From the NCBI GenBank assembly GCA_013150955.1, contig JAADJD010000038.1:62001-126000 (forward strand): a stretch of 64,000 nt of DNA. The letters are read 5' to 3'. A program made the translations under genes and the position numbers. The notes beneath the pieces were generated by a model. It ran no database searches, had not been told where the DNA came from, and saw only the letters and a list, made by a program, of their open reading frames with translations. The stretch is from Calditrichota bacterium. Lineage in GTDB: Bacteria > Calditrichota > Calditrichia > RBG-13-44-9 > J042. Positions 32,182 to 51,600 of this stretch are shown piece after piece. The stretch's first letter is position 1. Every line of letters starts with the position of its first letter.

Positions 32182-32350
32182 AACCCAAATTACGCTTTAG
32201 ACCACGAATTGCACGAATTAACACAAATAAAAACAATAAAATCCATTGATTTAGATCTGGATGAAAATTCGCTTAGAGGTTTATTCGTGATTTTATTGAT
32301 ATTTTTTGTGTTCATTCGCGTGATTCGCGGTTTAACGCATTGTTTGTGTT
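32182..32350 (-). repeat. Dispersed ~165-bp repeat, copy 9 (orientation B)
   Basis: Complete copy from AACCCAAATTACGCTTTAGA to CGCGGTTTAACGCATTGTTT then GTGTT. Its last T is the first base of the TAA stop (32350-32352) of the DUF4175-type gene. Confidence 0.8.
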
Positions 32351-35300
32351 TATCGCGGTTGTGCTTTTTGTCGCACCAGTGCTTCGTAATATTGGCGAAT
32401 CAGTTGCTGATATTCCCAGGAATAACCTTCTTCCAGCGATCTGAGCATTTCCTTGCGCAGCAGATCCTCTCTGTATATCTGCTCTTTTTGCAACTCCGGT
32501 GGCGATTTGACCAGCGGAGCTTTTTCCCATTCCGCCTTTCGCTTCCTGGAATATTCTTTTTCGCGGATGGATTTCTGGGCATCCAGCAGCCGGGACAGGA
32601 TCCGTTCCTGCCGTTCAATCACCTTCCGATCCAATTTTTTCCGCCGCAATTCCTTAACCACCTCCTCCATTTCCTGAGCCAGATTGTCCAGCCGGCCCAG
32701 CACATCCCCGCGATGTTGGCCGGACGTTTCCATCAATCTTTCCAGGGAACGGCGAATCATTTCCTGTTGAGCGGCCAATCGCGCCAGCGCTTCATCGCTC
32801 AACTGCAACCGCCCGCTCTGCATTTGCTGAAACAGGCTCATGGTCTGCTGGTTCAATTGCCCCTGTTGCCCGGCCATCTGTTGTAATTGTTTTAAAAATT
32901 CCTCGAAACCCGATGCGGAACTGGCCTGAGCCAGTTGCTGCATGGCGCTGCGCATGGATAAAATGGCCTGATTTAAATTGGCCATCACTTCCTTCTGGGC
33001 ATGGGCGGCAGAACGGGGATTCCGCTCTTCCAGTCGCCGCAGGGATTGCCCGATGTTCAGCATCATGTTGCGCAGGATGCTGTTAAGCTGGGGAGACAGG
33101 AAAAAGGTCTTATTTCCGATCTGGATCAATTGCTCAATCATATGGCGAACATTCTCGCGAATCTGTGACTGACGACGGGCAATGTCGGTAATTCGTGGCG
33201 AGGCCATGTCGATTTTGCGGGACTGCTGCATGAGTTTTTCCTGACGGAAGGACGTTTGCAACATTTCCTCGGTAACCTTGCGCATGGCCTGCAGCAGCTG
33301 TTCCTTCTGTTCGGTCACCATTTGCTCGCGGGTCTGTTGCATCATACTCTGAAGGGTTTCCAGACGCGATTGAATTTGCTGCCCCGTTTGTCCCGCCTGG
33401 TGCTGTTGCCCCGCTTGAATTTGCTGCCTCATGCTATCCATCCGCGCACCCACACGCTGCTCCCGCAAAAACTGCTGCGCTTTCTCCAGCTCCCGGGACA
33501 CCGAGGCCATTTCCTGCTGAAACGTTTGTTTGGTTTTCTCCAGCTTTTGCTCCAGAAAATCCAGCTCCTTGCGCAAACTCCCTTCCTGGTTGGCCAGCTG
33601 TTGCCGTTCCTGTGGCGACAATGACTTTTCCGACAATTTGCGATTAATCTCCTTTTGTTTTTCCCGGAGCTTCTCGGCCAGATTCACCAGCTCATCCATC
33701 ATGCGTTCCATCTGCACCTGCTTAAACAATTCATAGGTGCGCTCCACCCGGCGCTCGAACTCTTCCAGTGAAAACTGGAAATTCTCCAGCGCTTTTTTGA
33801 TCTTTCGGGGATCCATCTTCTCCAGGGCTTCCTGAAGCTTTTCCATGGCCTTTTGCAGCTCCGGAGTGGCCAATTCCTGGAACATCTTCTGCAATTCGAA
33901 GAATTTTTCCAGGGTTTCGGGACTTAGCAGCTGCTGTTCATCCAGCTGGCGAACCGTTTCTTCAATCTTCTTTTGAATTTCATCCAGTTTCTTCTGCAGC
34001 TGGCGATGTTGTTCCAGTTTTTCCTCCAGTGCCTTCCGCTGTTCCCAGGTCAATTCTTTCTGCCGCTTAATTTCACGCGCGATTTCTTCCAGCTTCTTCT
34101 TCAACTCCCGCTGCTCTTCCACCACTTCCCGGGTCTCTTCCAATCGATCGGTCAAAGCCGTTTCGCTTTCTTCCAGGATATCGATCAGCGATGGCAGTCG
34201 AATCACAAACGTTCGCGATTTCCCCACGCCCGGCCCGGAAACGGTATTATTGTCCCACACCTCAGCGAAATATTCGATGTAATCATCCGGCACCAGGTAA
34301 AAATTGGTGAGATCCCAGTGGAACTGGCTCAGCGCCTGTTGATCACTGATGGGCTGAAACGGCACCTCCAGTGAAAATTGACTGGTGTCCCCCGTGGAAC
34401 CCGCCCGGATGACCTGCCCCTTTATCCACAGCTTCTGAAAGCCAAAGTCGTCCTGCAACTTTATCCGAACCGGCACCACCAGTTCGTCACCCAGATCCAC
34501 ATCCTGACCGGGCTGAAGGATTTCCACCGTGGGTGGTTCATCCGGCAGCGCAAAGACGGCATGCTGCACCGGCTGGTAGTTGGGAATGCTGTCCACATCC
34601 ACCACGCGGATCTGATACTGATCGTTCCGCCAGATGGAGAAATGGCCTTTGGCCCGGTTGCCCAGCGGCGTTAAATCCACCCGCGTGGAATCCTGAAAAA
34701 GCAAATAGGCCTCCCGCAGGGGTTTGTTGGCCTCGATTTCTACTTCCACCCGCGTACCGATCAAGGCGTAAATTTCCCCATTGTTGGCCTCCAGCAATTC
34801 CGGGGACTGCCCGGTGTAGGCCGGGGGAATTAACTTAATTTGCAGGTTGCGGATAAAGGGTCGCTCCCGCACTTCCACAATGCCCACCTCACTGCGGGCC
34901 ACCCGCCCCTTAAAAGGCGCTACTTCCAGGCTCCCCTCGAACCAATAGCGAAAATCTTCCATGACATGGGGAATTTCGTAGCGGAAGGTACTACCGGTGT
35001 GCCCGGATAACTCCATGCGTTCCTGCACGGTCGCTTCCCCATTGGGAGCGGTCATTTCGGTGACAAACCAGAGGCGATCCGGTACCGTCCCCTCGATGCG
35101 CCCTTCCAGCACCACCGGATCGTTCTTCAACACCTGGATGTCTCCTGTCAGATTGATTAACCGAAACGGGAGAGCCGGTTCGAAGGATTCGCCAGGGAAA
35201 ATGACCCGTAAAAAAGCAGTTTGAATGCTTCCAGGAAAAAGAAAGAGCAGCACCAGAAACAGCAGGCCTGAAAGCAGGATTTTCCGCACATCCCGCGTCA

Positions 35301-35769
35301 ATGCGCCAAACCGAATGCCATCCGAAAATGCCGCGTCTCGAAACCGTCGATACAATTGCTGCAAGGACGCCAGACGGATAACCGGATCGGTGTCCGATGC
35401 CCGGCCTTCGTAGATCTGGAGAAAGTCAATTAACGCATCCTGAATATCCGGCCGGTGTTTACCCACCTCGCGGGCCGTTCGAATGATTTCTTCATGTTCG
35501 GGAAATAAACAGAGTTTCAATGGCGAGAACAGCCGCCAGAAAAAGTACACCAGCGCAAAGCCAATCCCCAGTCCCCAGAAACCCCAGCGGATCGCAGAAG
35601 GCAGGTCAAAAAGGAGCTCGATAAAGATGAATCCCAGAAAGGCCAGCAAAACATACAGCGCTCCCGTTAAGAAGCGCTGAAGAAACATAAAAAGGTACTT
35701 TTTCCGCGTGGTGACGAAAAGTTTATGATAGGTTTCCTGATAAATCCGATCGATCCGGTCATTCTGCAT
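32350..35769 (-). CDS. DUF4175-type large membrane protein with long coiled coil
   Basis: This 1139-residue protein has transmembrane segments near the N-terminus (about 26-48 and 57-75) and again near 163-180. Beta-rich periplasmic domains (about 200-540) include the repeated Ig-like phrase FRLINLTGDIQVLKND. A very long Glu/Gln/Lys/Arg-rich coiled coil (about 560-1110) has heptads such as LDEIQKKIEETVRQLDEQQ. This matches the DUF4175 family, which is usually linked to MoxR-type ATPase or DUF4159 loci. No enzymatic motif is visible; an envelope-spanning scaffold is plausible. It follows DUF4159 by 21 bp and DUF456, forming one unit. Its stop codon touches the repeat. Confidence 0.8.
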   Translation of the reverse strand: MQNDRIDRIYQETYHKLFVTTRKKYLFMFLQRFLTGALYVLLAFLGFIFIELLFDLPSAIRWGFWGLGIGFALVYFFWRLFSPLKLCLFPEHEEIIRTAREVGKHRPDIQDALIDFLQIYEGRASDTDPVIRLASLQQLYRRFRDAAFSDGIRFGALTRDVRKILLSGLLFLVLLFLFPGSIQTAFLRVIFPGESFEPALPFRLINLTGDIQVLKNDPVVLEGRIEGTVPDRLWFVTEMTAPNGEATVQERMELSGHTGSTFRYEIPHVMEDFRYWFEGSLEVAPFKGRVARSEVGIVEVRERPFIRNLQIKLIPPAYTGQSPELLEANNGEIYALIGTRVEVEIEANKPLREAYLLFQDSTRVDLTPLGNRAKGHFSIWRNDQYQIRVVDVDSIPNYQPVQHAVFALPDEPPTVEILQPGQDVDLGDELVVPVRIKLQDDFGFQKLWIKGQVIRAGSTGDTSQFSLEVPFQPISDQQALSQFHWDLTNFYLVPDDYIEYFAEVWDNNTVSGPGVGKSRTFVIRLPSLIDILEESETALTDRLEETREVVEEQRELKKKLEEIAREIKRQKELTWEQRKALEEKLEQHRQLQKKLDEIQKKIEETVRQLDEQQLLSPETLEKFFELQKMFQELATPELQKAMEKLQEALEKMDPRKIKKALENFQFSLEEFERRVERTYELFKQVQMERMMDELVNLAEKLREKQKEINRKLSEKSLSPQERQQLANQEGSLRKELDFLEQKLEKTKQTFQQEMASVSRELEKAQQFLREQRVGARMDSMRQQIQAGQQHQAGQTGQQIQSRLETLQSMMQQTREQMVTEQKEQLLQAMRKVTEEMLQTSFRQEKLMQQSRKIDMASPRITDIARRQSQIRENVRHMIEQLIQIGNKTFFLSPQLNSILRNMMLNIGQSLRRLEERNPRSAAHAQKEVMANLNQAILSMRSAMQQLAQASSASGFEEFLKQLQQMAGQQGQLNQQTMSLFQQMQSGRLQLSDEALARLAAQQEMIRRSLERLMETSGQHRGDVLGRLDNLAQEMEEVVKELRRKKLDRKVIERQERILSRLLDAQKSIREKEYSRKRKAEWEKAPLVKSPPELQKEQIYREDLLRKEMLRSLEEGYSWEYQQLIRQYYEALVRQKAQPR

Positions 35770-35790: not shown

Positions 35791-36453
35791 TTAATATAAT
35801 AATGCGTAAAGGATGATGTTCGTTCCCATTTTCAGAGCCTGGCGACGAATTTCCGGGGGATCCCCGTGAATATCGGGATCTTCGCATCCATCGCTGATGT
35901 CCGTATTAAAACTGTAAAATGCGACCATGCGGCCTTCGTAAAACAGGCCGTAGCCATGCGGTGGCCCACCCGCATGTTTGTGAACCTTGGGCAGTCCATT
36001 AGGAAAATTGAAATACACATGATAAATTGGATGCGAAAACGGCAGTTCCACCCACTCGGCTTCCGGGAACACTTTTTTCATCTCCCGACGAAAATAAGGA
36101 TCCATTCCATAATCATCGTCCGCCCATAAAAATCCGCCCCCAATCAAGTACTGGCGCAACCGCTGCACTTCCTCATCGGTAAAGCGAATGTTTCCATGGC
36201 CGGCAATATACGCAATGGGATATTTAAAAAAATTCTCATCGGTGATCTTCATGGAAACTTCCCGTTCAGCGGTGACCACATTGGTCTGTTCCCGCATGAA
36301 TCGGAACAAATTCACAAACGTGGTGCGATTGCCGTACCAATCTCCACCCCCGCCATACTGAATACGCACCACGGTCACCGGCATTTGCGCCGACGTCTGC
36401 CCAATCAAACACAGCATAAATACAATGATGAATAATCGGAAGGCTGGCGTCAT
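35791..36453 (-). CDS. DUF4159 exported protein
   Basis: This 220-residue protein has a signal peptide (about 1-22, ending QTSAQ) and a DUF4159 domain. Its glutamine-amidotransferase-like fold is suggested by the AYIAGHG turn, FLWADDDYGMDPYFRREM and YEGRMVAFYSFNTD; the amidotransferase cysteine seems absent. Function is unknown; the family often neighbours DUF4175 or MoxR/VWA genes, as it does here (DUF4175 follows 21 bp downstream). It lies 10 bp after the DUF456 stop. Confidence 0.82.
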   Translation of the reverse strand: MTPAFRLFIIVFMLCLIGQTSAQMPVTVVRIQYGGGGDWYGNRTTFVNLFRFMREQTNVVTAEREVSMKITDENFFKYPIAYIAGHGNIRFTDEEVQRLRQYLIGGGFLWADDDYGMDPYFRREMKKVFPEAEWVELPFSHPIYHVYFNFPNGLPKVHKHAGGPPHGYGLFYEGRMVAFYSFNTDISDGCEDPDIHGDPPEIRRQALKMGTNIILYALLY

Positions 36454-36463
36454 GTTGGCCTGA

Positions 36464-36970
36464 TCATAAAAACAGTTTGTATCCCACGATCACGATCATG
36501 GTCAGGGTGCCGATGGCCTTCACGGTCAGTGGCCCCAACCGGCCGATTAATGCGCCCAGCATCACCTGCTTTGCTTGGCGCAAATTATTCTTCTTGATTA
36601 GCACCTCAAACACGATCGTCCCCACAATCAAACCAATCACCCCCCCGGTGATGGTACCCAGCACGGGAGAAGCAAACGCGCCGCTGATGGCACCCAATAG
36701 CCCACCGGCAATGGCACCAATGACCAGAATACGATTGGCGCTGTATCCTCTTTTCCCGAAGGCAATGACGATGTATTCCAGCAATTCGATAAGCAGGGCA
36801 ATCAAAATGAGGGAGATAATAAAGGAAAATTTATAGCGTTCAAAACGCGTTGCCAGACCATACCACAACGCATCGATGACAATAATAAAATTTCCCGGAA
36901 TGCTTAAAAATATCCCCACCAGACTGAATGCCAGAATTACCAAAAAAATAATTTCCAGTGTTCCAACCAT
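36464..36970 (-). CDS. DUF456 family membrane protein
   Basis: This 168-residue polytopic membrane protein has four or more hydrophobic segments. Glycine-rich stretches (GAIAGGLLGAISGAFASPVLG, here with the repeated G-x-x-x-G pattern, and GGVIGLIVGTIVFE) are typical of DUF456. It may oligomerise or conduct, but no function is established. ATG 36970 is preferred to the TTG at 36982. It is the first gene of the DUF456-DUF4159-DUF4175 unit, 123 bp after the STAS gene. Confidence 0.8.
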   Translation of the reverse strand: MVGTLEIIFLVILAFSLVGIFLSIPGNFIIVIDALWYGLATRFERYKFSFIISLILIALLIELLEYIVIAFGKRGYSANRILVIGAIAGGLLGAISGAFASPVLGTITGGVIGLIVGTIVFEVLIKKNNLRQAKQVMLGALIGRLGPLTVKAIGTLTMIVIVGYKLFL

Positions 36971-37093
36971 ACCACAACCCAAATTTTTTACAGAATGAAA
37001 TTTAGGTATAAACGGTGCTTTCAGGCAAACAAATTCTTTTGCACAGGGAAACGATGTAAGGGGAATCGGTGGTTTTGTTCAAATCCGGATGAT

Positions 37094-37894
37094 TTAAACG
37101 CTGGCTTCCTGCACATTTTGCAACGAATACCGGGATCGATGCCGCAGGGCAAAATTCTGCCGTTTTTGACGGGTATCCAGATTGAGCTTTTTTAGCAGAC
37201 TCCGCACCTTAAACCAACCGACTTTTTCATTTCCGAATTCCGGCGAGCGCAACCGCCGATTGATCCGAAACGCCCCGTAATCCGGATAATTGGATACAAT
37301 ATATTTGATTTTTTCTTCCAGGGGTAACCGCTTCAGGCTCACCGGTGCACTGCTGGTTTTGGGCTGAGTTTCGGAAGTTGTCAGCGGTTGTTCGCTTACG
37401 GGCCGGGTTGCCGTTGGTTGATCCACACTGACCGGGCGTTCCGGTTGGTGGGTGGTTTCACTGGCCTGGGCGACTTCCTCGGCCCTGGCCGCCTGAGCGC
37501 GCTCAAAAGCAGCCGCACTGGGCTCGCTGGCCGCCTCGGCCTGCTCAAATTTCATCACCGCACCTTCCACCGTATCGTAAACATCCAGAATGTGATGAAA
37601 TTCCAGCAATTCAAAAATTTCATAAACATCGGGGATCATCCCCACCAATTTTAAATCCCCGTTATTTTCCCGAATGGTCTTGATTTCGCTGATAAAAATA
37701 CCCCACCCCGCACTGCTGATATAGTCCACATTGCTCAGATCAATGATAATATTGTATCTCCCCTGCTTTAACAGACTATTCAGGGCACGCTCTACCTCCG
37801 AAGATGTCGTGGTGTCGATATATCCGCCCACCTTAATCACCGAAATCTGATTGCGACTCCCCGCCGTATGCGTGGAAACTTGGATGCCTTCCAT
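37094..37894 (-). CDS. STAS-domain anti-sigma-antagonist-like protein with C-terminal HTH-like module
   Basis: This protein of about 266 residues has an N-terminal STAS domain (about 1-112) with IIDLSNVDYISSAGWG. The Ser pair S60/S61 there corresponds to the phosphorylated Ser of SpoIIAA/RsbV. A low-complexity Ala/Glu/Pro/Gln/Thr linker (about 117-190) leads to a basic, helical domain (about 191-257). That domain aligns without gaps to the phosphatase encoded just upstream (198-251 here against 738-791 there, 16/54 identical) and resembles transposase-type HTH domains. The presumed cycle is that the kinase domain of the partner phosphorylates STAS and the SpoIIE domain removes the phosphate. 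ATG 37894 follows GGAGGG; ATG 37906 and TTG 37909 are alternatives. Confidence 0.82.
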   Translation of the reverse strand: MEGIQVSTHTAGSRNQISVIKVGGYIDTTTSSEVERALNSLLKQGRYNIIIDLSNVDYISSAGWGIFISEIKTIRENNGDLKLVGMIPDVYEIFELLEFHHILDVYDTVEGAVMKFEQAEAASEPSAAAFERAQAARAEEVAQASETTHQPERPVSVDQPTATRPVSEQPLTTSETQPKTSSAPVSLKRLPLEEKIKYIVSNYPDYGAFRINRRLRSPEFGNEKVGWFKVRSLLKKLNLDTRQKRQNFALRHRSRYSLQNVQEASV

Positions 37895-37920
37895 CAAACC
37901 CTCCATCAATTAATAAAAGG

Positions 37921-40680
37921 TCAGCGATTTTCCTCTTTATCCTGTTGTTCTACATTATCATCGGCAACGACATCATTTCCAATAACTTCTTCATCGATTT
38001 TGTCCCTTTCGGGCTCATTTCCGTCGGAGTCGGTCACCGGTGTTTCCACCGGTTTTTCCTCATCCTGCGCATTTTCTTCCGTCAACTGTGCCTTGCGCCT
38101 TTCCTCTTCTTCGGAAATTTGCTCCGCAGTGATCAATCGCTTTCCACTCACGGAAATAATTTTCTCTTTCGATCGTTTGCCGGCACCTGCACTGGGAATG
38201 TAATGATAGGTGGTTTCAAACATATCTTCGCTACGGAACCCAACCATGACCTCGCCATCCAGCGTCAACAGCGGGGTACCCGGCGGTTTCAACCGCTGCT
38301 TACCGCCCCGCTTCACAAATTGAATCCGCTGCTGCTTGGTGTTCAATTTTGCCCGTTTTAATTCCTCGTAAATCAATTTCGGCGGTACCTTGGTATAGCC
38401 GTATTTCTCTGTATTCAACATGTCACTGATCTTTTTTGGGCCAAATTCAGGATGCTGCCGGATAATATCATATATTTTGGTCTTTATTTCAATACTTAAA
38501 TGCTTCAACCCCAGATTAGTATAGCCGTGCAACATTTCCCGCAAATAGGTGTAGCCGCCCTTCTCGTAAATTTTCTTGTAACGGTAATAGGTCGATGGGG
38601 AGATTCCCAGTTCCCGACAGGCTTCCACCAGTGTTTTTCCGTTGGTTCCCTTTTTCCGCTCAAACAATTCCTTGAACAGATTTACTTTGATATCCACCGC
38701 TTCCATATTTTCTTTGATGGCCACCAGGGTGATGTCGTCATTCTGCTCATACCCGCCGGTAAAATTCAAAATCTCGTTCTTAATGCTTTTCACGAAGTCC
38801 ACCACATCCAGGTGACCATACTTGCGAATGGCGGCCAGGAACCGTTCTTCCCCGAAGAGTTCCCGTTTGGCATTCATGGCTTCGGTAATTCCATCGGTGT
38901 AGAGCACCAGAATGTCGTCCGGATGCAGCCGAATTCGATCGGCCTGGATTTTTTCGGCAAACAGATTGATGTCCGGCAGGGTAATTCCCACCGGAAAGCC
39001 AGATGGATTCAAATAGTAGGTTTCCTTGGTCTTTCCGCGGAACAGGATCATGGGGTTATGCCCGGCACTGGCAAAGTAGACCATGCGTTCCCGGGAATCC
39101 AGGATGACATAGAACATGGTCACAAACATGCCCTTCTTAATATCCTCAGTCACAAAGGCGTTAACCCTGGTGAGCACGTCGGCTGGATTTTTATTCCCCC
39201 GCGCTTCCAGCCGCAGGGCGGTGCGGATCATGGTCATCACCAGGGAACCGGGAACGCCTTTTCCGGACACATCAGCCACACAAATGCCGATGCTCTGATC
39301 GTCCACCTCCACAAAATCAAACAGATCCCCACCCACTTCTTTGGCGGCCTGATAGTAGGACGCAATGTCGTATCCGATGACTTCCGGGAAGTCATCCGGC
39401 AACAGCATTTGTTGAATTTCCTGGGCCACCTGCAATTCCTTTTGCAGGCGCTGTTGCTCCACCAGATTGATCTGCGCTTCCCGGAACTTGCTGGTCATCT
39501 CATTAAAGGCCTGGGCAATCTCGCCCAGCTCGTCACTGGCGTCAATGTCAATCTCGTCTTCATCCACCGTACCTTCACCCACCTGACGCACCCACTCGGC
39601 CAATTTGTGGAAAGGTTCGGTAATCAGGCTAATGAGCAGGAAGAGGCCAATATAGCCAGCCACCAGAAAGAGTAAGAGATACAGGATCAGGTTGCGCCGG
39701 GCAATGGCAATCTGTTTCAGAATGTATGCCTCTTCCACCCACAGCTGGTAGTACCCCGCTGGCTCGTCTTCTAGTCCCGCCAGAGCAATGGGGGCCACGA
39801 AATAGAAAATGGCCGAATCCCCCACCGCGCGCCGATAGACTTCCACATTCTCCATTCGGGTGACCAGCTGGGCATGTTTCCAGTCCACTTTCTGGCGGAT
39901 CATCTCCACCTGAATGGGATACACCGCCACCACCTGCGAATCCCGATCGGTGATTACGGCCATGCGGATCATTTCGGGCTTGCTTTCCTTGACCGATTTG
40001 GCATTCTGGAACAGAGGAATATCGGTACCCCCTTCCAGCGCCACCGTCAGTGGCTCGTAGGAGATTTCCGCCAGATTTTGAACCATGGAACTGGCCTGGG
40101 AAAAGGTCAATTCGTAAATGTCGGTATTCAAACGGGCGTTAAACACAAAGAAGGCAATGATGATGATGATGGTCAAACCCACCGAGCCGACCAGGGAGAA
40201 TTTGGTGCGCAGGGTAAGCGAATCCCAGATGTCCAGCAACCGGGTTTTTTCCACTTCATCGCGCACCTTGGTGAGGCGCAATTCGTTGCCCCGGCTGGTT
40301 ACATTGTAACGGATGTCGTCCATCAACTTGCGCATCATGAAGATGCCCAGACCGCCCTTTTTCCCGATCTGGACGTATTTCTGGAGATCGGGATTTTTCA
40401 CCTGCCGGGGGTCAAAACTGATGCCCTGATCGATGATCACCATGGTCAGGCTGCGGCGGCGGATGATGGCCCGGATGGTGATCTTGCCATCCTTAATATC
40501 GCGATAACCGTGGCGGATGATGTTCGTGCAGGCTTCGTCGACAACCAGTTTAAAGGAATTGATAATCTTATCGGGGAACTTGTACTTTTTGCCAATGAAC
40601 TCGATAAAATCCCGCACCTCGCGCAGATAACTCATCTGGGCGGGGATCTGAATTTCTTCTTTAGAAACGTTCTTAAACAT
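37921..40680 (-). CDS. Membrane SpoIIE-type phosphatase with HATPase, HAMP and C-terminal HTH modules
   Basis: This 919-residue fusion carries a complete partner-switching toolkit. Residues 1-145 form an RsbW-like HATPase (VDEACTNIIRHG with E49/N53, D84 and GGLG 109-112). TM1 is 163-180, a periplasmic sensor region spans 181-328, TM2 is 331-354 and HAMP is 355-405. A PP2C/SpoIIE phosphatase (425-657) has metal Asp D452 (GDLFDF), D470 (ADVSGKG), D596 (TDGITEA) and D648/D649. Residues 678-705 look like a transposase OrfA-type helix-turn-helix (ACRELGISPSTYYRYKKIY). Residues 725-795 form a second module shared with the STAS protein, then an acidic tail. HATPase and SpoIIE in one chain are known; the appended HTH modules are unusual. 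The STAS gene follows, 26 bp away from its chosen ATG. Confidence 0.88.
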   Translation of the reverse strand: MFKNVSKEEIQIPAQMSYLREVRDFIEFIGKKYKFPDKIINSFKLVVDEACTNIIRHGYRDIKDGKITIRAIIRRRSLTMVIIDQGISFDPRQVKNPDLQKYVQIGKKGGLGIFMMRKLMDDIRYNVTSRGNELRLTKVRDEVEKTRLLDIWDSLTLRTKFSLVGSVGLTIIIIIAFFVFNARLNTDIYELTFSQASSMVQNLAEISYEPLTVALEGGTDIPLFQNAKSVKESKPEMIRMAVITDRDSQVVAVYPIQVEMIRQKVDWKHAQLVTRMENVEVYRRAVGDSAIFYFVAPIALAGLEDEPAGYYQLWVEEAYILKQIAIARRNLILYLLLFLVAGYIGLFLLISLITEPFHKLAEWVRQVGEGTVDEDEIDIDASDELGEIAQAFNEMTSKFREAQINLVEQQRLQKELQVAQEIQQMLLPDDFPEVIGYDIASYYQAAKEVGGDLFDFVEVDDQSIGICVADVSGKGVPGSLVMTMIRTALRLEARGNKNPADVLTRVNAFVTEDIKKGMFVTMFYVILDSRERMVYFASAGHNPMILFRGKTKETYYLNPSGFPVGITLPDINLFAEKIQADRIRLHPDDILVLYTDGITEAMNAKRELFGEERFLAAIRKYGHLDVVDFVKSIKNEILNFTGGYEQNDDITLVAIKENMEAVDIKVNLFKELFERKKGTNGKTLVEACRELGISPSTYYRYKKIYEKGGYTYLREMLHGYTNLGLKHLSIEIKTKIYDIIRQHPEFGPKKISDMLNTEKYGYTKVPPKLIYEELKRAKLNTKQQRIQFVKRGGKQRLKPPGTPLLTLDGEVMVGFRSEDMFETTYHYIPSAGAGKRSKEKIISVSGKRLITAEQISEEEERRKAQLTEENAQDEEKPVETPVTDSDGNEPERDKIDEEVIGNDVVADDNVEQQDKEENR

Positions 40681-40750: not shown

Positions 40751-42655
40751 TTAATTCTCTTTAGTTCTTTTAAGCAAATCTTCGGCTTTTTTTATGGCTT
40801 CCTGAATCTTCTGGTTGTATGGATATTTCCTGGCCAGCTCTCGCCACACCTCCAGTGCTTCCTGATAGCGTCCGGTCAGGAACAACTCGGTTCCCACAAT
40901 ATACTGCTTCTCGGCCTGCGGATCGAGCTCCTCTTCGCCTTCCCCCAGACCGCGTCGGGCGCGTTCCATGTACTGACGCAGCACTTCGTTGGCCGGATCC
41001 AGATTGAGCGCTTCCTGAAACAGTGCCAGGGCCTCCTGATACCGTCCCTGATCATACAACTGCAGCGCCTGTTGCACATACTGTTGCACTTTCACCCGAT
41101 TGGCCAGCGCATCCACTTCTCGTTTCAACTGAGGATCATCCGGGGACAGCACCAGCGCCTCGCTCAAGATGCGCAATGCTTCCGAAAGATTGCGATTCTG
41201 AAATTCCCGCCGGGCCTGGGTCACCAGACGACGCACTTCCTGGTTCAACCGACGTTTGGTGGTCTGAATGGCCTGAAGAATAATCGGGTCATCGGGAGAC
41301 CGTTCCAGTGCCAGATTAAAGGCGATTAACGCTTCGTTAAATCGCTTCTGCTGCAGGTACAACTGCCCTTTTTCGAACTGCAATTCCACAAAGCGCTTGT
41401 TTTCCTTGGCCAGCTCTTTGTCTACCGCCTGGGCGATGAGCTGTTCCTGGCGAGCCTGCAGCTCGCGCTGGATCAACGTATTGGCGCTATCCAGCATGAT
41501 CTTGGCCGTCTTGTTAAACGGATCTTCTGAAATGACCATCTGAAATTCGGTAGCGGCATCAAAGTACTTTTGCTGTTCAAACAATTCCTTTCCTTTGGCC
41601 AGATGCTCGGCAATGAAGCGTTGCCGTTCTTCCTCCTTGGTACGCTCCACCAATTCTTTTTCCCGCCGCCGACGTTCTTCTTCGGCCAGGCGAATCAATT
41701 CCTCGCGGGTCTTGCCCAGATTAAACGTGATAGAGAATCGATGGGTGGGCGGCCAATCCCCCTGATAACTCAGGTTCCCGAAGGAATAATCGATCTGGAC
41801 AAAAGAATAGCGCACCCCGGCGCCAAAGGCCAGATTGTTGCGATCGAACCCCACGCGAATGGTTCCCAGATCGCGGAAATTGTATTCGGTACCCATGTGA
41901 ACGCGCATGGGCTCAAATTCGGACTTACTGAAATCCAGCAGCACATTCACTCGACCGCTGAGACCAACCGGGAAGGCCTTCAGGATGCCCAGCCGAAATT
42001 GTGCCGGTAGAACTTCCCGCTCCACCCCCAGCTTCAACTCCGGTTTTAGCAGATTCTGGTAATGAAACCCGATGGACAGATCCCGTAAGAAGCGATTGTC
42101 CCATCGCGGCTTGTACATGAGGCCCAGATCCAGACCGATGCCACTGGTGACCAGATTCAAAAAGGTAAATTCCTGACGATCGATTTTGAATGTAATTCCT
42201 GTGGTAAGGTTAAAGGGCAGTTTCTTGGCGTAAGAAATGTAAAGCTCGCTATATTCGAAACGGGACACCCCTTCCTGAACGTTGAATTGATTGACCACCG
42301 GGATATCCCCCACCCCGATGCGGGCATACCCAACGCCAACCGTTCCGAATTGCAGCGTGGGATAGACAAATCCCAGGAAGTCGTACACGGCGCCTTCATA
42401 AAGGGGCGCATGCAGCAGGGAGATGGTCAGGCGCGGTACAAATTCCAGTCCCGCGGGATTCCAGAACACCGCGGCCGGGTCATCCGCCAGGGCCACGTAC
42501 GCCCGACCCAATCCCAGCGCCCGCGCACTGGCACCGATGTTCATTAAACTGGTGGTGCCGGCACTGCCCTCCTGGGCCTGTATTGGCGGCACGGCTCCTG
42601 CAAGAACAACCAGCATGGCCAGTGCAAAAATGAGTGTCTTTGCCCGGTGTTTCAT
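40751..42655 (-). CDS. PorV/PorQ-family outer-membrane protein fused to TPR repeats
   Basis: This 634-residue protein has a signal peptide (1-27, ending PIQAQ). A FadL-like beta-barrel of the PorV/PorQ family (28-330) opens with MNIGASARALGLGRAYVALA and DDPAAVFWNPAGLE, a family signature. A charged coiled coil (about 335-375, EELIRLAEEERRRREKELV) leads into TPR repeats to the C-terminus (for example RYQEALALFQEALNLDPANE). PorV carries type IX substrates from the translocon to the attachment complex. Here it lies 12 bp after the giant sorting-domain protein, so it may be its dedicated handling factor, with the TPR part as a periplasmic docking arm. That pairing is inferred from position. Confidence 0.85.
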   Translation of the reverse strand: MKHRAKTLIFALAMLVVLAGAVPPIQAQEGSAGTTSLMNIGASARALGLGRAYVALADDPAAVFWNPAGLEFVPRLTISLLHAPLYEGAVYDFLGFVYPTLQFGTVGVGYARIGVGDIPVVNQFNVQEGVSRFEYSELYISYAKKLPFNLTTGITFKIDRQEFTFLNLVTSGIGLDLGLMYKPRWDNRFLRDLSIGFHYQNLLKPELKLGVEREVLPAQFRLGILKAFPVGLSGRVNVLLDFSKSEFEPMRVHMGTEYNFRDLGTIRVGFDRNNLAFGAGVRYSFVQIDYSFGNLSYQGDWPPTHRFSITFNLGKTREELIRLAEEERRRREKELVERTKEEERQRFIAEHLAKGKELFEQQKYFDAATEFQMVISEDPFNKTAKIMLDSANTLIQRELQARQEQLIAQAVDKELAKENKRFVELQFEKGQLYLQQKRFNEALIAFNLALERSPDDPIILQAIQTTKRRLNQEVRRLVTQARREFQNRNLSEALRILSEALVLSPDDPQLKREVDALANRVKVQQYVQQALQLYDQGRYQEALALFQEALNLDPANEVLRQYMERARRGLGEGEEELDPQAEKQYIVGTELFLTGRYQEALEVWRELARKYPYNQKIQEAIKKAEDLLKRTKEN

Positions 42656-42667
42656 ATGTGTCGATCT

Positions 42668-45600
42668 CTATTTTATAAATGCGACCTTGGTCTTAAACAT
42701 TTTGGTTTCCCCGTTCTGGTATTTCACCCGAAGCACCGCCAGGTAAACGCCATTCAACACGCGGTAACCCCGTTCGTTGCGACCATCCCAGACGATCTTT
42801 CCGTCGTACAATCCTTTCTGCAATCCTTTTTCCTCTTTCTTCCACACCAGCTCTCCCAACAGCGTGTAAATCCGCAATTCCACATCGGCGGGACTTTCCA
42901 GGTAAAAGACGAATTTGGTGTATTCATCCCGCAACCCGAAGGGATTGGGATAATTACCAAAACTCTTCTTGGGATCCGAAGGCACCACGGAAATCGATTG
43001 CGATTGCAGCTTGTTGTTCAACGTATCGATCGGATTGCCAATGGAATCGGTCACCTCCACGCTGTAGAAATCGCCGGCAAATTTCTGAAAGGCCACCACG
43101 CCGTCCAGTCCCACATGAAAATTCCGGTTGGGTGCATTCTGCGCAATGTCGAACAACACCACCAGCTCGTGTTTTTCGCCGGGTAGTAGAACGTCCTGGT
43201 TCACGTTAAAAGGAACCGATGCCGGATTGGCTGTTGTATCCGTAACCGGCACATCGGCAAAGATGTCCGGGATCTGTCCAGCGGCTTTCTTTTTCAACAA
43301 TTCGCGATAGTATTTCAAGCTGACCACCTTAATCCGCGAGATCATGTTGACCAGATCGGCGTAGGGACGATTGCCTTCAGCAGGATTCCTCAGCGAGATG
43401 AGCACCTTCTTCACGTACAGCGTGTCGTCGATCTGCGGATTGCTCATGGAAAATCCGAGTACCGCTACATCTTTCTGTCCCTGCACGTAATTGGATTCGG
43501 GAATGATGTCCTCCAGTTTTTCTACGATCAACCGCTTGGGGATCATGTTCACATCAATGACCACCCGATTGCTGTCCGGGTGCACATCGACCGGTGCATT
43601 GGTATTGGCATCCTGCGGCAACTGACCGAACGTAATGTTCATCAATGTGTTTATGTTGGAATCGGGGGCCATGAGCTTCCAGGTAATTCGGGTATCTTTA
43701 TTTGCACCCAGGGAGAAAGACTTCTCGGATGTTTCGCCGGGGGCGAGCAAAATTCCATTCAATTCAATGCGGACGCTGCCGCTGCCACTCACCGGCGCCT
43801 CGCCCGTGTTTACCACCCGCACGGACACATCAAACCGCTGCTTTTGCGACAGTCGATACGCCCGCTGCACCCCTTCCAGTCGTAATACGGCGCGCCGCTG
43901 CACCTCGATGGGCAACATGTTGCTGGTCTGACTCAGGGCTTCGCCAGTGTTCTTTTCCACGGCGTAAGCCTGCAGGAAAAAGGGCGTCCCCTGGGTGGTT
44001 TTTAACACATCCATGACCTTAAAGACTTTAGAGCGCGCTTCGGCCATCACCGGCTTCATTTTTTCGAATCCCAGAATGCGGAGTGCATCATCTCCGGTTC
44101 TCTTGCCAAACTTTCGTGGCGGCAATTTTCCGGCGGTTGAAGATTTCCCCGTTTTTCCGGGCTTTGTGGGTTTCTGTCTGGGTTCTGGCCCTTCGTTAAC
44201 AAATTTTTTACGGGGCGATTGTGCCACCATCGCCGCGGGTACGCCAGGGACGGCTCCGGAACCGGGCACAAAATCGGGTGCCAGAACGTCCCAGGTCACG
44301 GTGACCTGATCACCCCTGTCGGATACCACCTGCACACTATCGCCCAGAATGCGGAAGCCGGTGGCGGGATCAAACACCAGCGCAACCAGCCGATTTTCTG
44401 GAGCCACGCTGCCGCGAAATTCAACCTCGCCTTTCAGGCGGAAGGTTTGTCCGGTGGAAATGGTCGAATCCCTGGCCCCCTCCGGCCAATCGATGCTTAA
44501 TTGGGTCACAATTAAACCGCGCTGCTCGATGACGTAAGCAAATCGCACGGTGTCGCTCACCCGTGCCACACGGGCATTTTCAAAATTGTTGTTTTCATCC
44601 CGTGCAAGGGAATCGGTGATGGCAACAATCAACGTATCGGCTCCCACGTTCGCGGTGGCCGAGACGGCTAAATGTGCCGCTCCCGAGCGGGTTTCCGGGT
44701 CAATGGCGATGTACTGCGTGGCCGGGGTGCCCAGCAGGGTCAGGCCCTGCCCCATTTGAACAATCTGCACCCGTACCGAATCGGGCACCACTCGCGCATC
44801 TCCCAGATTCCGCAACTCCACGGTCAGCAGACCGGTTTGTCCGGTGGACATCACCGTATCGCCGCTGACGCTGAGCTGCAACAACGCTTTTCGCACAACC
44901 CGAATGGGAATGCGCACCAGATTATTGACGATTGCAGCCGGTTCCAGGGTGTTCTCGTCGCGGGCCACTTCCTGGAGCTGCACCACGATGTTTTGCAAGG
45001 GCAACGGATTGTTTAACGTACGCAATGTGAGGGTGGTATCCTGAATCCCCAGTTGAATGCTTAACGTATCCCCGGATCGATCGGCGAACTGAATGCCTGC
45101 CGGCAATTGAATGCGAATCCGGTTGCGCGAGGTGTCCAGAATACCGGCCTGCCCCACATTCAGGGTTTGAATCTTCAACTGGAAGAGTTGATCGGTGGAC
45201 AATTCTCCGTCCACCGCGCCTTCAGGGGCTGCAATGGCTGCCTGCAGCCGAATCCTGGCCCCATCCACCACGTTAACCACCAGCGTCTGCACATCGGTAA
45301 TTTCTTCGAAGGTATTTTCATCCTTACCGCGATTGATAATCCGCAACGTGTCTGGCCCGCTGGGGGTTGCCGGGGTGTTGATGCGCCACACAACTTCCTG
45401 CACCACGCCCTGGGGTTCCACATCCACCCGCGTGCGACCTTCCACCGAGTAACCGGTGGGGACAATGACTTCCGCCACCCGGTCGCTGCGGGCAACCTGC
45501 CCCAGGAAGAAGATGGTGTTCTTCAACAGAAATTGCTGTCCGGTGGTCAATTCCCGATCCACGGCCCCCACGGGGTCAATAATTTCCACAGTAGAGACTA

Positions 45601-48600
45601 TCCGCGCAGAGGTATCTGTTCGCACCGGGATTTTCACCGTATCGATGGCCACACCGGCCGGCTGATTGGTGTTCACATCCAGCGGCAACTGACGCAGGTG
45701 CACCAGCAGGGTGTCGTTCAATCCCTGCGTTAAGTCCATGGCCTTCACCTTCCAGAACCCGCTCCGGTTGGTTGGACTGATGGTCTGTACCGCATCGGGC
45801 GTTTCCGGGGTAAGCTGGTAGTTTGGCGGCAACACCAGCTCCACCTGTCCGGTCGACCATTCACTTTCTCCTGTGGTGGAAATCCGGTAATCCACGGTAA
45901 ATTCCTGCACCTGGGAGAGCGTGCTATCCGATGCCGTGGCCGAGAGCGTCAGCACCACCGGCTGCTGGATAAACAGATTTTCCGTATTGTCTACCGGCTG
46001 TCCCACAAAAACCTGATTCCCGGTGATTCGGGAAAAGGCGCTGTCAATCGTCGCGCGGAACAGCTGCGTCTGGCTGACCGAATCGGCCCGAAACGTGTAA
46101 GTAAATTTGGTAATGCGATTGGGCAATAGCACAGGAATGGTATCGCGAATAAAGATTTCTGCATCCTTGAAAATGGTCACATGCACCTGACTGAGGGTGT
46201 CATCACCCGAATTGGCCAGGTACAGCTCCAGCGCCACCGGCTGGCCATAATTAACAAAAGGCGGATTGGGCACCTGAGCCAGTTTCAACTGACTGACAAA
46301 GGCACTGGAAAACTGAATGATGCGTACCTGATCGGTGACGGCCCCACTGGTGAAATTCCGCTCATCGTCTGGTTTGCGCAGGTCGTTGTATGCCCCATTC
46401 AGTCCGGCAAATGCCGGGCCCAGTGGAGCGGTATCCAGAATGTTGTATTTTCGGATAAAGGTGACCTGTTCGCCCGGCAGAATCGTAAAAGGCAGGTTGT
46501 GCGAATTGAAGACAGTAATCCATTGATCCGTCATTTCCTGCCCGGCACTGTCCACAAACACACTATTCAGCTCATTCACCTGCGCCCCGGATGCCCCCTT
46601 GTTACTCAAATAGTAGCGCACTTCCACAAAACTCTGTCCGCGGGTCACCACCTGAGGAACGATGTCAATGGAATCCACCACCACCAGGGCTTCGGGCAAA
46701 ACGGTCAACTGGTGTTGTCCGACCAGGGTATCCCCTTCAAAGGGTTGATCGTTGGGAAGCTTTCCGTGCATCACCACCTGAATGGGTAAAATGAGATTGG
46801 GAGCAAAATCGGGCGGCACCGTCTCGGTCACAAACGGCACCGTGTTTTCCCGTGGCGTCTGGGTTAGCGTCCCCCGAATGGTGATGTTCCCATCCACGTT
46901 GGCGCGGAAAACCCGAACGCCATCGGTGAATTCCAGATACGAACTGTCCGGATTCACGATCAGATCGGTATTTCCACTGTTTTCAACGATTACCGAGAAC
47001 GTGACCGTCTCACCAGGAACAATACTATCCGGTTCCAGGGATCCATTCTGATAACTGAGCAGCACACCGGATTTAATCAGGAAGGTATCCGGTAAAAGCG
47101 AGACCTTGGTCAGGGTACCGTTGTTGAAACTGATAATCGCCTTCACCGTTACCCGTCCCACACGGGCGTCATCGGGGACGTCAAACAACCACTGCAGCGT
47201 TTCGAAAGAACCTGGTGGCGTGGTATGCAGGGTATCCAGATTGTCCACCCGTCGATTGGGTGCAAACAGAATCTCTCCGTTGTCCACATAACGGAAATCC
47301 AGCATGGTGCCCTGCTCATCGATCTTTAGCGGCGGGCCGGCGTTGGTAACGCGCACAAACACGTCCACATTCTTTTGGCCGGGCACCACCTGATCCGGAT
47401 TCACCTGCACATCGGTGATCGAAACATTGCCACCGATGTTGATCACCACCGTATTCAAATTCTCGGCGTAGGGAATTTCATTCGAGGTGCCTCGAATCCG
47501 GGTCACCGGCACGTACTCCCCGGTCTGGGAAAGCACCAGCGGCTGAAAGACCAGTACCGTGGTTTCCGCCGGTGCCACGGTCATATCGGTGGCCAGAGGA
47601 TCGATGTAGGTAATCATCGCCGGTTCGGAAGGGATTTCCAGATGCGTCTGATTATTCAGGTGCACGATGCTTCCGCCGGCATTCACCACGGTCACGGTGA
47701 ATTGCACCGTGTCCCCATCGTCAAAAACGGTGTAGGGGCCCAGTTCCAGAAATTCAAAATCCGCGGGATTGACCACGGTTAAATAGGCCAGGGAGTCGGC
47801 CGTGGTGTTCAGCGAGGCCTCGGAATACACATCCTGAGCCGTCAGGCGCGTGCCCGCATAAATCAACGTATCCTGATAGGTGTCCAGCGAAATGCTATTG
47901 GGCACGTCCACCGAATAGGTCAAATCCACCGTATTGCCGCCGGCAACGGTCACCGGAAGCAACGGATTCTGCAGCGTCTGTGTGAAAGGATACGACACAT
48001 AAAACTGCAGGGTATTGCTAAAAATCTCGGCTCCGGCTTCCCCGGTATTTCGGATGCGCACCACATATTGCACGTCTTCCTGGCCCACATGTGCCGTATC
48101 GGGGGCAATGGCAATGGATTCTACCACCAGACGGGCCTGCTGGACAACCTGCAGGTCGTCGCTGGTGCTGGCATCCTCAAACAGCAGTGCCTGCTGATCG
48201 TTTTCATCCCGGTAATGCACCCGCGCGGTGAACGTGTACCGATTGCTGGCCGCGGTGGGTTTTACCTCTATGCGATAGTTCAGGCTGCTGGAAGCTCCAT
48301 TGGGAAGCGTCACCGGCAAACTGAATAATCGCACAATGTTAAAATTACTGGTGTCGAAAGCCACGTTATTGGCCAGAATTTCAATGGAATCGATGCGTGC
48401 AGTGGCGGTGGGATTGCCCTGCCCCTGATTCTTGATGGTAAAGGCCAGCAGCACGTTCGTCTGTCCCGTGCTGGCGGTGTCCTGATCCACCGCAAAGCTG
48501 GTGTAGGCAAGTACCGGACGCTGTTGCACCGTCCAGGACGCGGTGGTCTGCGCTGCCGGTGCCTGAACCCGACTTCCAGAGACGGCATTCCGCCCGGAAG

Positions 48601-51600
48601 CAGCCGCATCGATGACATCCGCACCCAGTGTGGCCGTGGTGGAAACATCCACATACAACAGCACCACCGCGGTATCGCCACCGGCAATGGTCTTATTCAA
48701 ATTGGAACGAACGATATTACTATAATTGGCATTACCGCTGGAGAAATTCAACCGCACCGTATCCAGCACCACATCGCCACCACCATTATTGACCAGGTTT
48801 ACCTTAACCCGTACTCCGGTCTGCCCCCGACTCACGGTGCTCTGACTGGCAACCACCGAGGTGATGGCCAGATCGGGGTTTTCCTGGATCAACCAGTCAA
48901 ACGCCGGCGAAACCTGGGTGGTGATCGCATTCTGACTCAATTCATCCCGGCCCCGTACGGTCAGGGCGATGGAATCGCGACCGGTGGCGGAATTGTCTTC
49001 CACCCGGAATTGATAAAACAGATTCACCGTCTGTCCCGGCGGAATCTGCTGTACGTTATGCTGTGCAGTGATGGTGTAGACCCCCATGTTCGGCGTAAAT
49101 TGAATCTGATCCAACAGGGCAGCCACCTCACCCCGATTTCGCAGGGTGATTTTCACCGAATCGACCGTCTGACCGGTGGTTACCGTATCCGGGGCAACGG
49201 CCTGCACAAAATCGATGGTGGCTTTCTTCAGCACAAACACCTGGGTCAGCGAATCGGTGCGGTTCTGGCGATTGATGTTCACATCCCGCCAGATCACCCG
49301 AACGGTGTAGGGATAGTTCCCCTGCACGGTGGTATCCAGCGAGGCATTGGCCGTGGGTAGCATCAGAACGGTATTGGGAGTGGCCTGCTGGCCAACATAT
49401 TCTCGAATTCCCAGTTCCGGAATGAGCAGGGAGTCGATGATCGCATTGGCCCGACTGGCACCATCGTTGCGCACCGCCACCTGAATGGAAAACACCTGCT
49501 CCTGGGACACCGTATCGGGAGCCGTGATGGTATGGATTACCACCTTCGCCGAATCGTAAACGGTGATGGTAATGGGACTCAGCACCGTGGATTTGTAAAA
49601 ACCATTTTCAAAATAGTTATTGGCGTAGAGCTGTCCATCGATGCTACCGGTGGGCAACTGAATGGTTTTATTTTCAAAATACAGGTATTTGATGCGGTTT
49701 CCTTCCACCCAGGTGTCGTTCTTTAAATAATAGCGGGTGCCGGCAAAATCCAGGTAGGTCGAAGCGGCAAACAGCTTCATGTTGGCCTGACCTTCGTTTT
49801 CCACCTCGACCCGAAAACCAACCACCTGTCCGTTGCTCACCTCGTTTGGTGAGATGCTGGTGTAAATCAGTTTTCCGGGCACCACCATGCGCCAGCTGTC
49901 GGTGGTATCGGCACCGGAATCGGTCAGGCGCATGTTCGAATGGCTATCCCGTCCCGCCCCTCGCGCATTCAGGGTAACGCTTCGTGGACTGTTGGAACTC
50001 AACACATCGATGGCAAAATCGATTTGTCGGGTGGCTCCCGCCGCAATTTCCAGCGCCGGGGCGAACACCGTGTCCTGCCCCGCAAACGAACCGGTCGAGA
50101 AGGTCACCTGCAGGGTATCCAGCAACAGAGGGGTATTGCCGGTATTTTTCACCCGCACGTGTACTGGCACATCATTGGAGCCAATGGATACCGAATCGAA
50201 GGCAAAGGTGGGACTGCTGGCATCCACCGCCAGGATGCGCAGTTCCGCCGGTCGGGTGACGGTCAGGGTCGGCCCCTCGGCCGCCGTGGAGGAATCCTTC
50301 ACCGTCTCCTGCTTGTTGGTCTCAATGCCTTCCACGGTGGAGGTGATGGTGTAATTGCCCTCGCTGGCACTGGAGAGAACTTCCAGAGAAAAGTAAGCAA
50401 TGTTGTTCCCGCTGAACGGATCGCTGCTTAATGAATCCAGATTCTGATAAAAACCGGTGGTGGCACCATTGAAGTAGAGCGTCACCTCGGTGACGTCCAC
50501 CAGCGCCTGTCCGGGATTCTGGAAATACACCCGAACGGGGATCCCCTTCTGGCCGACGGAGACCGCCGTCACCGGAGTGGTAACGCTGTCGATTTGCACA
50601 GAACCGGCGCTTTGCACCAGAACGGTCGCCGGAGCGGTGGAAGTCACCGGCCCCAGAGAACGGTTATCCACCAGATCCGTTCCCCGCGCTTCAAAGTCGA
50701 TGGTGTCGGTCACCGTCTGGGCGGTGAGTTTAACGGTCATGCGGTAAATGAACTTCACACTATCGCCACCGGCAATGGTGGGCAAGTCCACCGGCGAGAC
50801 GCGTTCCATCGTAAAACCGGCCGCATCCGGCGAGATGCTTGGTGTGAATGCATCCAGCCGCAGATCGGCCATGCCGGTGTTTTTCACAAAGGTCGTCACC
50901 TCCACGTCCTGCTGTCCCTGACTCACCGTATCCCGGCTGACCTGAACGGCATTGACGATCAGATTGGCCGGTGTTAACACATTCACGCTGTCCGTCCGGC
51001 TGGCACCCACCTCCCGGTACTGCTGGTTGGAATTCAGATCCGTGAACACCGCCCGCACGTCCAGCGGAATGATGCCCGTATCGGCCGTTGTGCTGATGCT
51101 CAAAAGGAAGTTGTAAGTCCGGGAGCTCTTTCCGGGTAAAATTCCCAACGCGCTTACCAGAGAATCCTTTACACCGGGTTGATTGGCAAAAATCCGCAGC
51201 GAATCGATGCGCGCATCCGCCTCGGCCAGATTGGTCAACTTGACCTTGGCGGAAATACCACTCTGTCCCTGATTGACGTTGAACTGGCTGACATCCAGGG
51301 AATTAATGGTGATTAAATTGGTGTCTGCAGCGGATTCCACATAAATCGTGTCTGCATTGTTTCGTTTTTCGGTGGTAATGGCGCCCGTGCGGACGTTAGA
51401 ATAAATCACCGTGCCGTTTACCGGATCCGGCCCCAGTGCCGACTTGCTGTTGATGGTATATTTAAATTGCAGGGTATCCGTACTGCCGGCCAGAATGGTG
51501 ACCGGCAGGGGCGGTGTAATGCTTTCCAGACTGTGCTGATTGTTGAAACTTAAATAGGCGCTGTCCACACCCACGTGACCGTTCACTTCGCCACTGTTCT

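Follow-up and report, generated by a model that had tools for sequence, protein, structure and literature searches.

The locus considered here raises the question of what a bacterial partner switch may act on when no sigma factor is linked to its genes. The window, that is, the whole stretch of 64,000 nt that was analysed, comes from a Calditrichota bacterium (GTDB lineage Bacteria; Calditrichota; Calditrichia; RBG-13-44-9; J042; GCA_013150955.1, contig JAADJD010000038.1, positions 62,001-126,000, forward strand), and it encodes a membrane kinase/phosphatase and, adjoining it on the same strand, a STAS protein, here called STAS-A (Table 1). The true start of STAS-A is Met6 (ATG 37894), not TTG 37909, because MEGIQVS is where its homologues begin or where their alignment to it sets in; this ATG is also closely preceded by a GGAGGG. 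Ser66 and the module at residues 197-258 are nevertheless counted from TTG 37909, whereas the residues 198-251 of the preliminary description of this DNA were counted from Met6.

Table 1. Genes and protein features of the locus, in positions of the window
Feature	Position	Strand	Basis or remark
DUF4175 protein, downstream neighbour	32350..35769	minus	conserved in Calditrichota
DUF4159 protein, downstream neighbour	35791..36453	minus	conserved in Calditrichota
DUF456 membrane protein, downstream neighbour	36464..36982	minus	conserved in Calditrichota
STAS-A protein, 266 aa, corrected start ATG 37894	37094..37894	minus	homologue alignment, GGAGGG
Shared module of STAS-A, residues 197-258 from TTG, HTH_21-like	37136..37321	minus	profiles, structure model
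STAS domain of STAS-A, residues 19-117, E 2e-20	37559..37855	minus	Pfam
Predicted phosphoacceptor serine, Ser66 from TTG / Ser61 from Met6	37712..37714	minus	alignment
Membrane kinase/phosphatase, 919 aa: HATPase_c_2 - TM - sensor - TM - HAMP - SpoIIE - HTH - shared module	37921..40680	minus	Pfam, sequence
Linear motif PGTPLLTLDG, 3' of the phosphatase module	38254..38283	minus	homologue alignment
Shared module of the phosphatase, residues 732-793	38302..38487	minus	profiles, structure model
First HTH of the phosphatase, residues 680-713, HTH_23/HTH_28/HTH_Tnp_1, E about 2e-5	38542..38643	minus	Pfam
SpoIIE/PPM phosphatase domain, Pfam match residues 460-656, E 5e-51	38713..39303	minus	Pfam
HAMP domain, residues 348-398	39487..39639	minus	Pfam
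RsbW/SpoIIAB-type serine-kinase domain, residues 12-138	40267..40647	minus	Pfam
PorV/PorQ-family outer-membrane protein with TPR repeats	40751..42655	minus	upstream of the phosphatase

The pair had been described as a complete partner-switching set of HATPase, sensor, HAMP, SpoIIE and STAS domains, and both the Pfam matches and the active residues bear this out. The HATPase_c_2 domain (residues 12-138, E 1e-28) has the N, G1 and G2 boxes of a GHKL serine kinase, with Glu49, Asn53, Asp84, Gly110 and Gly112 retained in every homologue that covers the residue; the metal-binding aspartates of the PPM/SpoIIE phosphatase, Asp452 (just before the Pfam match), Asp470, Asp596, Asp648 and Asp649, are invariant (19/19); and Ser66 of STAS-A, the predicted phosphoacceptor, aligns to the serine of 'DSAG' in TM1442 and is present in 20 of 20 homologues. 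Two transmembrane segments of the phosphatase, at about residues 160-183 and 330-353, were read from the sequence, and the motif PGTPLLTLDG is almost invariant in the phosphatases of both Calditrichota and KSB1. Phosphatases of other Calditrichota families (L066-L073) have a helical domain of about 100 residues at the extreme C-terminus, which the window protein lacks, and the phosphatase of genome G009 (L072:7013-10270) is split into frames of 724 and 356 aa by a frameshift or an assembly error.

The C-terminal module common to the two proteins is homologous in them. The 54 ungapped positions and 16 identities originally reported between phosphatase residues 738-791 and STAS-A residues 203-256 (198-251 from Met6) are exact; BLASTP gives E 6e-6, the Smith-Waterman score of 85 is reached by none of 3000 shuffles (maximum 62), and the two family profiles align over 62 columns, free of gaps, with a probability of 98.8 and E 4.7e-17. 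The suggestion that the module is a transposase-like, DNA-binding type, with a further HTH ahead of it in the phosphatase, also withstood profile searches: an IS481 transposase N-terminal region matches phosphatase residues 679-784, which take in the first HTH and the module, with E 1e-8 (E 6.7e-15 in a homologue of another lineage), HTH_23 and HTH_32 are matched by 17 of 19 phosphatase homologues, and HTH_21, the second HTH of IS3-type transposases, by 22 of 33 STAS modules (best E 8.5e-6). No Pfam match to the DDE catalytic domain of IS481/IS3 transposases was found in the pair. The structural side of the suggestion stood in part, as the models show an all-helical HTH bundle in both modules, with pLDDT about 90 over the module, but a Foldseek comparison with the PDB gave no match with E below 0.001, the weak hits including several HTH proteins (FapR with DNA, PadR-family proteins, the FtsK gamma domain and Pax5). 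Searches of PDB chain sequences with the module profiles returned nothing convincing: for the STAS modules, the RED subdomain of the Sleeping Beauty transposase came first (E 0.47), and the phosphatase tail matched the Listeria protein Lin0861 weakly, through its first HTH (E 0.0076). The assignment of a DNA-binding-type fold therefore rests mainly on the sequence profiles and the helical arrangement.

Charge and the putative recognition helix, helix 3, bear on whether such a module binds DNA. The net charge of the module is +3 to +13 in STAS-A and +7 to +12 in its paralogue STAS-B, with a median of +9 for the two together, a value reached by 1.2% of random 60-residue windows, and in helix 3 the STAS proteins conserve aromatic residues and arginine, fixed as Trp-Phe-x-Val-Arg in STAS-A; together, basic charge and a conserved helix 3 favour DNA binding by the STAS proteins. 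The case is weaker for the phosphatase module, whose charge among homologues is +1 to +11, whose helix 2 is polar or acidic, and whose helix 3 reads x-x-Ile-Tyr-x-Glu: the Tyr is fixed and the Glu nearly so, at positions that in STAS-A hold Arg and variable residues. Since the putative recognition helices are fixed differently, joint binding of the STAS protein and the phosphatase to one DNA site is unlikely. The positions common to both kinds of module are mostly core and turn residues, and so point to a fold in common rather than to a DNA site in common. Accordingly, of the two roles first proposed, a switch acting directly on DNA is plausible, with CapS (see below) as a precedent, whereas a module uniting both proteins on DNA is weakly supported, the core residues being common to both but the putative recognition helices differing.

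The same observations may also reflect an HTH of transposase origin that now serves contacts between proteins, either in docking of the STAS protein on the phosphatase or in oligomerisation, with some protein partner as the output. The presence of the module in both enzyme and substrate, the common core residues, the invariant KxK-x-x-D face and the nearly invariant helix 3 Glu of the phosphatase modules are in line with such contacts, as are the giant SpoIIE proteins of KSB1 (L152-L156; 1638-1990 aa, ending in very long acidic tails and lacking an evident first HTH), which keep the fold at a near neutral charge of -3 to +5 and from which it follows that the module is able to lose its basic face. 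Nevertheless, the STAS modules remain basic in both phyla, the tails of a third group of STAS proteins, STAS-C, have the appearance of plain HTHs (VSRSTVYRWLRQ), with matches to IS3/IS481 models, and it is usually by the STAS domain itself that STAS proteins dock on kinases, as is established for SpoIIAA/SpoIIAB; a module given over to protein contact is thus rather unlikely, although it is the best placed of the alternatives.

The system extends far beyond the window. A search for the same fusion in other genomes, proposed at the outset, found the phosphatase tail in 40 of 40 Calditrichota genomes examined (weakly in two) and the tail profile in 77 of 79 genomes sampled around a KSB1 genome, while the STAS module occurred in 2 of 77 further genomes sampled across the domain, namely G165, which has the KSB1 gene arrangement, and G173, which has a PorV-phosphatase pair with STAS-A on another contig. 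The order PorV/TPR, phosphatase, STAS-A is common to Calditrichota and KSB1, the PorV/PorQ gene lying upstream of the phosphatase in nearly all loci sequenced on that side in both phyla, and DUF456, DUF4159 and DUF4175 come after STAS-A in most Calditrichota loci. Upstream of the PorV-family gene, the window also encodes a repetitive protein of 5420 aa with a type IX secretion-like C-terminus (42668-58930). PADLOC, applied to the pair and STAS-B only, returned nothing beyond a borderline partial DrmC hit.

The observation that no sigma factor is encoded beside the pair holds across this range, as no sigma homologue was found in 61 neighbourhoods over two phyla with 12 sigma queries, several of which were fragments; the linked target of the classical Spo/Rsb switch was thus not found there. 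A conventional partner switch, in which STAS-A counteracts an anti-sigma factor whose gene lies elsewhere and the tails play an accessory part, could draw on the 12 places in the genome that match Sigma70_r2, on its other RsbW-like kinases and on a linked STAS-RsbW pair on contig C23. It is nonetheless improbable in view of those neighbourhoods, of a kinase that is fused to its own phosphatase in the membrane protein, and of the tails, which every genome of the phylum conserves, unlike the linker. Post-transcriptional action of the STAS protein on an enzyme, as of SiaC on the cyclase SiaD, with the tail as a targeting element, is very improbable, since the loci have no identified cyclase gene beside them and the conserved tail resembles a DNA-binding fold, even though the curated models closest to the phosphatase half include SiaA (E 1.9e-22) and SypE/SypA and SiaABC govern biofilm.

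Beyond what the preliminary description could see, the system is phylum-wide and has a paralogue tied to polysaccharide export genes. STAS-B, another STAS protein of the genome that also ends in the module (contig G000:C23; 52% identity in the module), is followed in Calditrichota by wza and then wzc, another ORF having been picked at the wza position in one locus, and the same wza-wzc order is found at the KSB1 STAS-B loci; this linkage belongs to STAS-B and not to the STAS-A of the window. A separate RsbW-like kinase lies about 4 kb from STAS-B (L074:13933-14439, G000:C23; likewise in L075 and L076), and is a possible kinase for it. STAS-C (L157, L158, L159, L165) is longer, at 537-568 aa, and adjoins wza/wzc in three of four loci; in three KSB1 loci it is placed 3' of the wza-wzc genes. 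In L175, a STAS fusion of 910 aa was rejected as an assembly artefact, as a run of N lies inside it.

Of the 30 genomes that have STAS-B, 18 carry the 15-mer TGACNKGGCGRAGCT upstream of its operon, and over 40 genomes the 15-mer occurs 56 times, against 12 for a reversed control. The element TGTAAKTGACRKGGCGRAGCTRTA, conserved upstream of polysaccharide operons across Calditrichota, is found at L074:12433 (G000:C23:82418-82432, minus strand) and also in L075, L076, L080-L083 and L085-L088, with other sites in L207-L226. Among the other 15-mer sites examined are some at the starts of genes for polysaccharide export, sugar modification and glycosyltransferases, and two lie directly 5' of genes for NusG paralogues (L222:671-1180 and L226:2615-3148). 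RfaH is recruited by the ops element, GGCGGTAG, which the sequence GGCGGAGC resembles. PMC2871177 prints an ops-like sequence. The 15-mer was therefore rejected as an operator of the HTH, since it also precedes other polysaccharide and NusG-paralogue genes and resembles ops/JUMPStart, and a role as an antitermination element is likelier for it than one as a STAS-protein operator. Rfam gave nothing above threshold at the STAS-B loci or in the window, a permissive scan yielding only chance-level hits.

In the literature searched for STAS plus HTH, the only close precedent is CapS, a STAS-wHTH repressor that leaves DNA once the GHKL kinase CapK phosphorylates its STAS serine (EMBO J 2026, PMC13373217). 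Both systems have a GHKL kinase, a STAS protein with a C-terminal HTH and a conserved STAS serine, and no sigma factor, and CapK and the window phosphatase alike carry an HTH of their own. However, CapS has a MarR-like winged HTH, whereas STAS-A matches HTH_21 and its model is all-helical, with no wing strands; CapK is arranged as HTH-STAS-GHKL, and the window protein as HATPase-sensor-HAMP-SpoIIE-HTH, a membrane sensor with a fused phosphatase; CapK/CapS senses ssDNA and sits by immune operons, in contrast to the PorV/DUF neighbours here and wza/wzc for STAS-B; and only in the window pair is a transposase-type HTH homologous in both partners. The window pair would work in the manner of CapK/CapS, although it falls outside that family. 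In SypE/SypA of Vibrio fischeri, a single protein both phosphorylates and dephosphorylates a STAS protein (PMC4517449), as is predicted here, and the system controls polysaccharide-dependent biofilm, the polysaccharide link here being that of STAS-B; SypE is a response regulator, however, unlike the window membrane protein, and SypA consists of the STAS domain only. Judged by its domains, the window system combines a CapS-like STAS-HTH and a SypE-like dual enzyme with a different, transposase-type HTH. SiaA/SiaB/SiaC/SiaD of Pseudomonas aeruginosa likewise has a SpoIIE-type membrane phosphatase and a STAS-like protein and is sigma-free, but its output is a diguanylate cyclase and HTH tails are lacking, and SpoIIAB/SpoIIAA and RsbW/RsbV share the kinase fold, the STAS fold and the phosphoserine site, but have a sigma factor as output and an HTH in neither protein. 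The N-terminal regions of IS481/IS3 transposases (HTH_23/HTH_32, HTH_21) share the sequence profile of both modules, although in the window proteins the HTH is fused to signalling domains and the DDE domain is missing.

The preferred reading is a sigma-free partner switch in which the STAS protein itself is the output, through an HTH tail controlled by phosphorylation of the STAS domain, and it is given about an even chance of being correct. Its sequence-based parts are the domains, the module homology, the intact active residues, the conservation, the gene linkage and the lack of linked sigma genes. From the intact kinase, phosphatase and STAS residues, and from known partner switches, we infer that the membrane protein, as serine kinase (HATPase_c_2) and serine phosphatase (SpoIIE) under the control of its sensor and HAMP domain, would reversibly phosphorylate Ser66 of STAS-A; DNA binding, the effect of phosphorylation and polysaccharide control we infer as well. 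The STAS-A module, an HTH_21/IS3-IS481-type HTH on its variable linker, would bind DNA at promoters; a change of dimerisation on phosphorylation of the STAS domain may in turn alter this binding, as in CapS. The phosphatase, which retains the fuller, two-HTH transposase segment, may bind DNA or use the segment to position the enzyme, but its tail is probably not a reader of the STAS site. The STAS paralogues with the same tail beside wza-wzc would extend the switch to polysaccharide export, so that it may control genes directly, probably including those for polysaccharide export, with no sigma factor. That both halves of a partner switch took up a transposase-type DNA-binding segment early in the Calditrichota/KSB1 lineage, giving a DNA-touching membrane kinase/phosphatase and STAS transcription factors that replace sigma control and govern polysaccharide export and the surface-protein operon, is a more sweeping proposal and, taken whole, an unlikely one.

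For several partner switches of biofilm and motility, including SypA, HmpV and RbaV, the STAS protein still lacks a known target (PMC8256260). STAS-A carries its own candidate output domain, and the question of the STAS target thus becomes a direct test of DNA binding. If the preferred reading is true, STAS transcription factors would, together with CapS, have arisen more than once and from unrelated HTH types, and Calditrichota and KSB1, where little regulation has been described, would have a conserved regulator.
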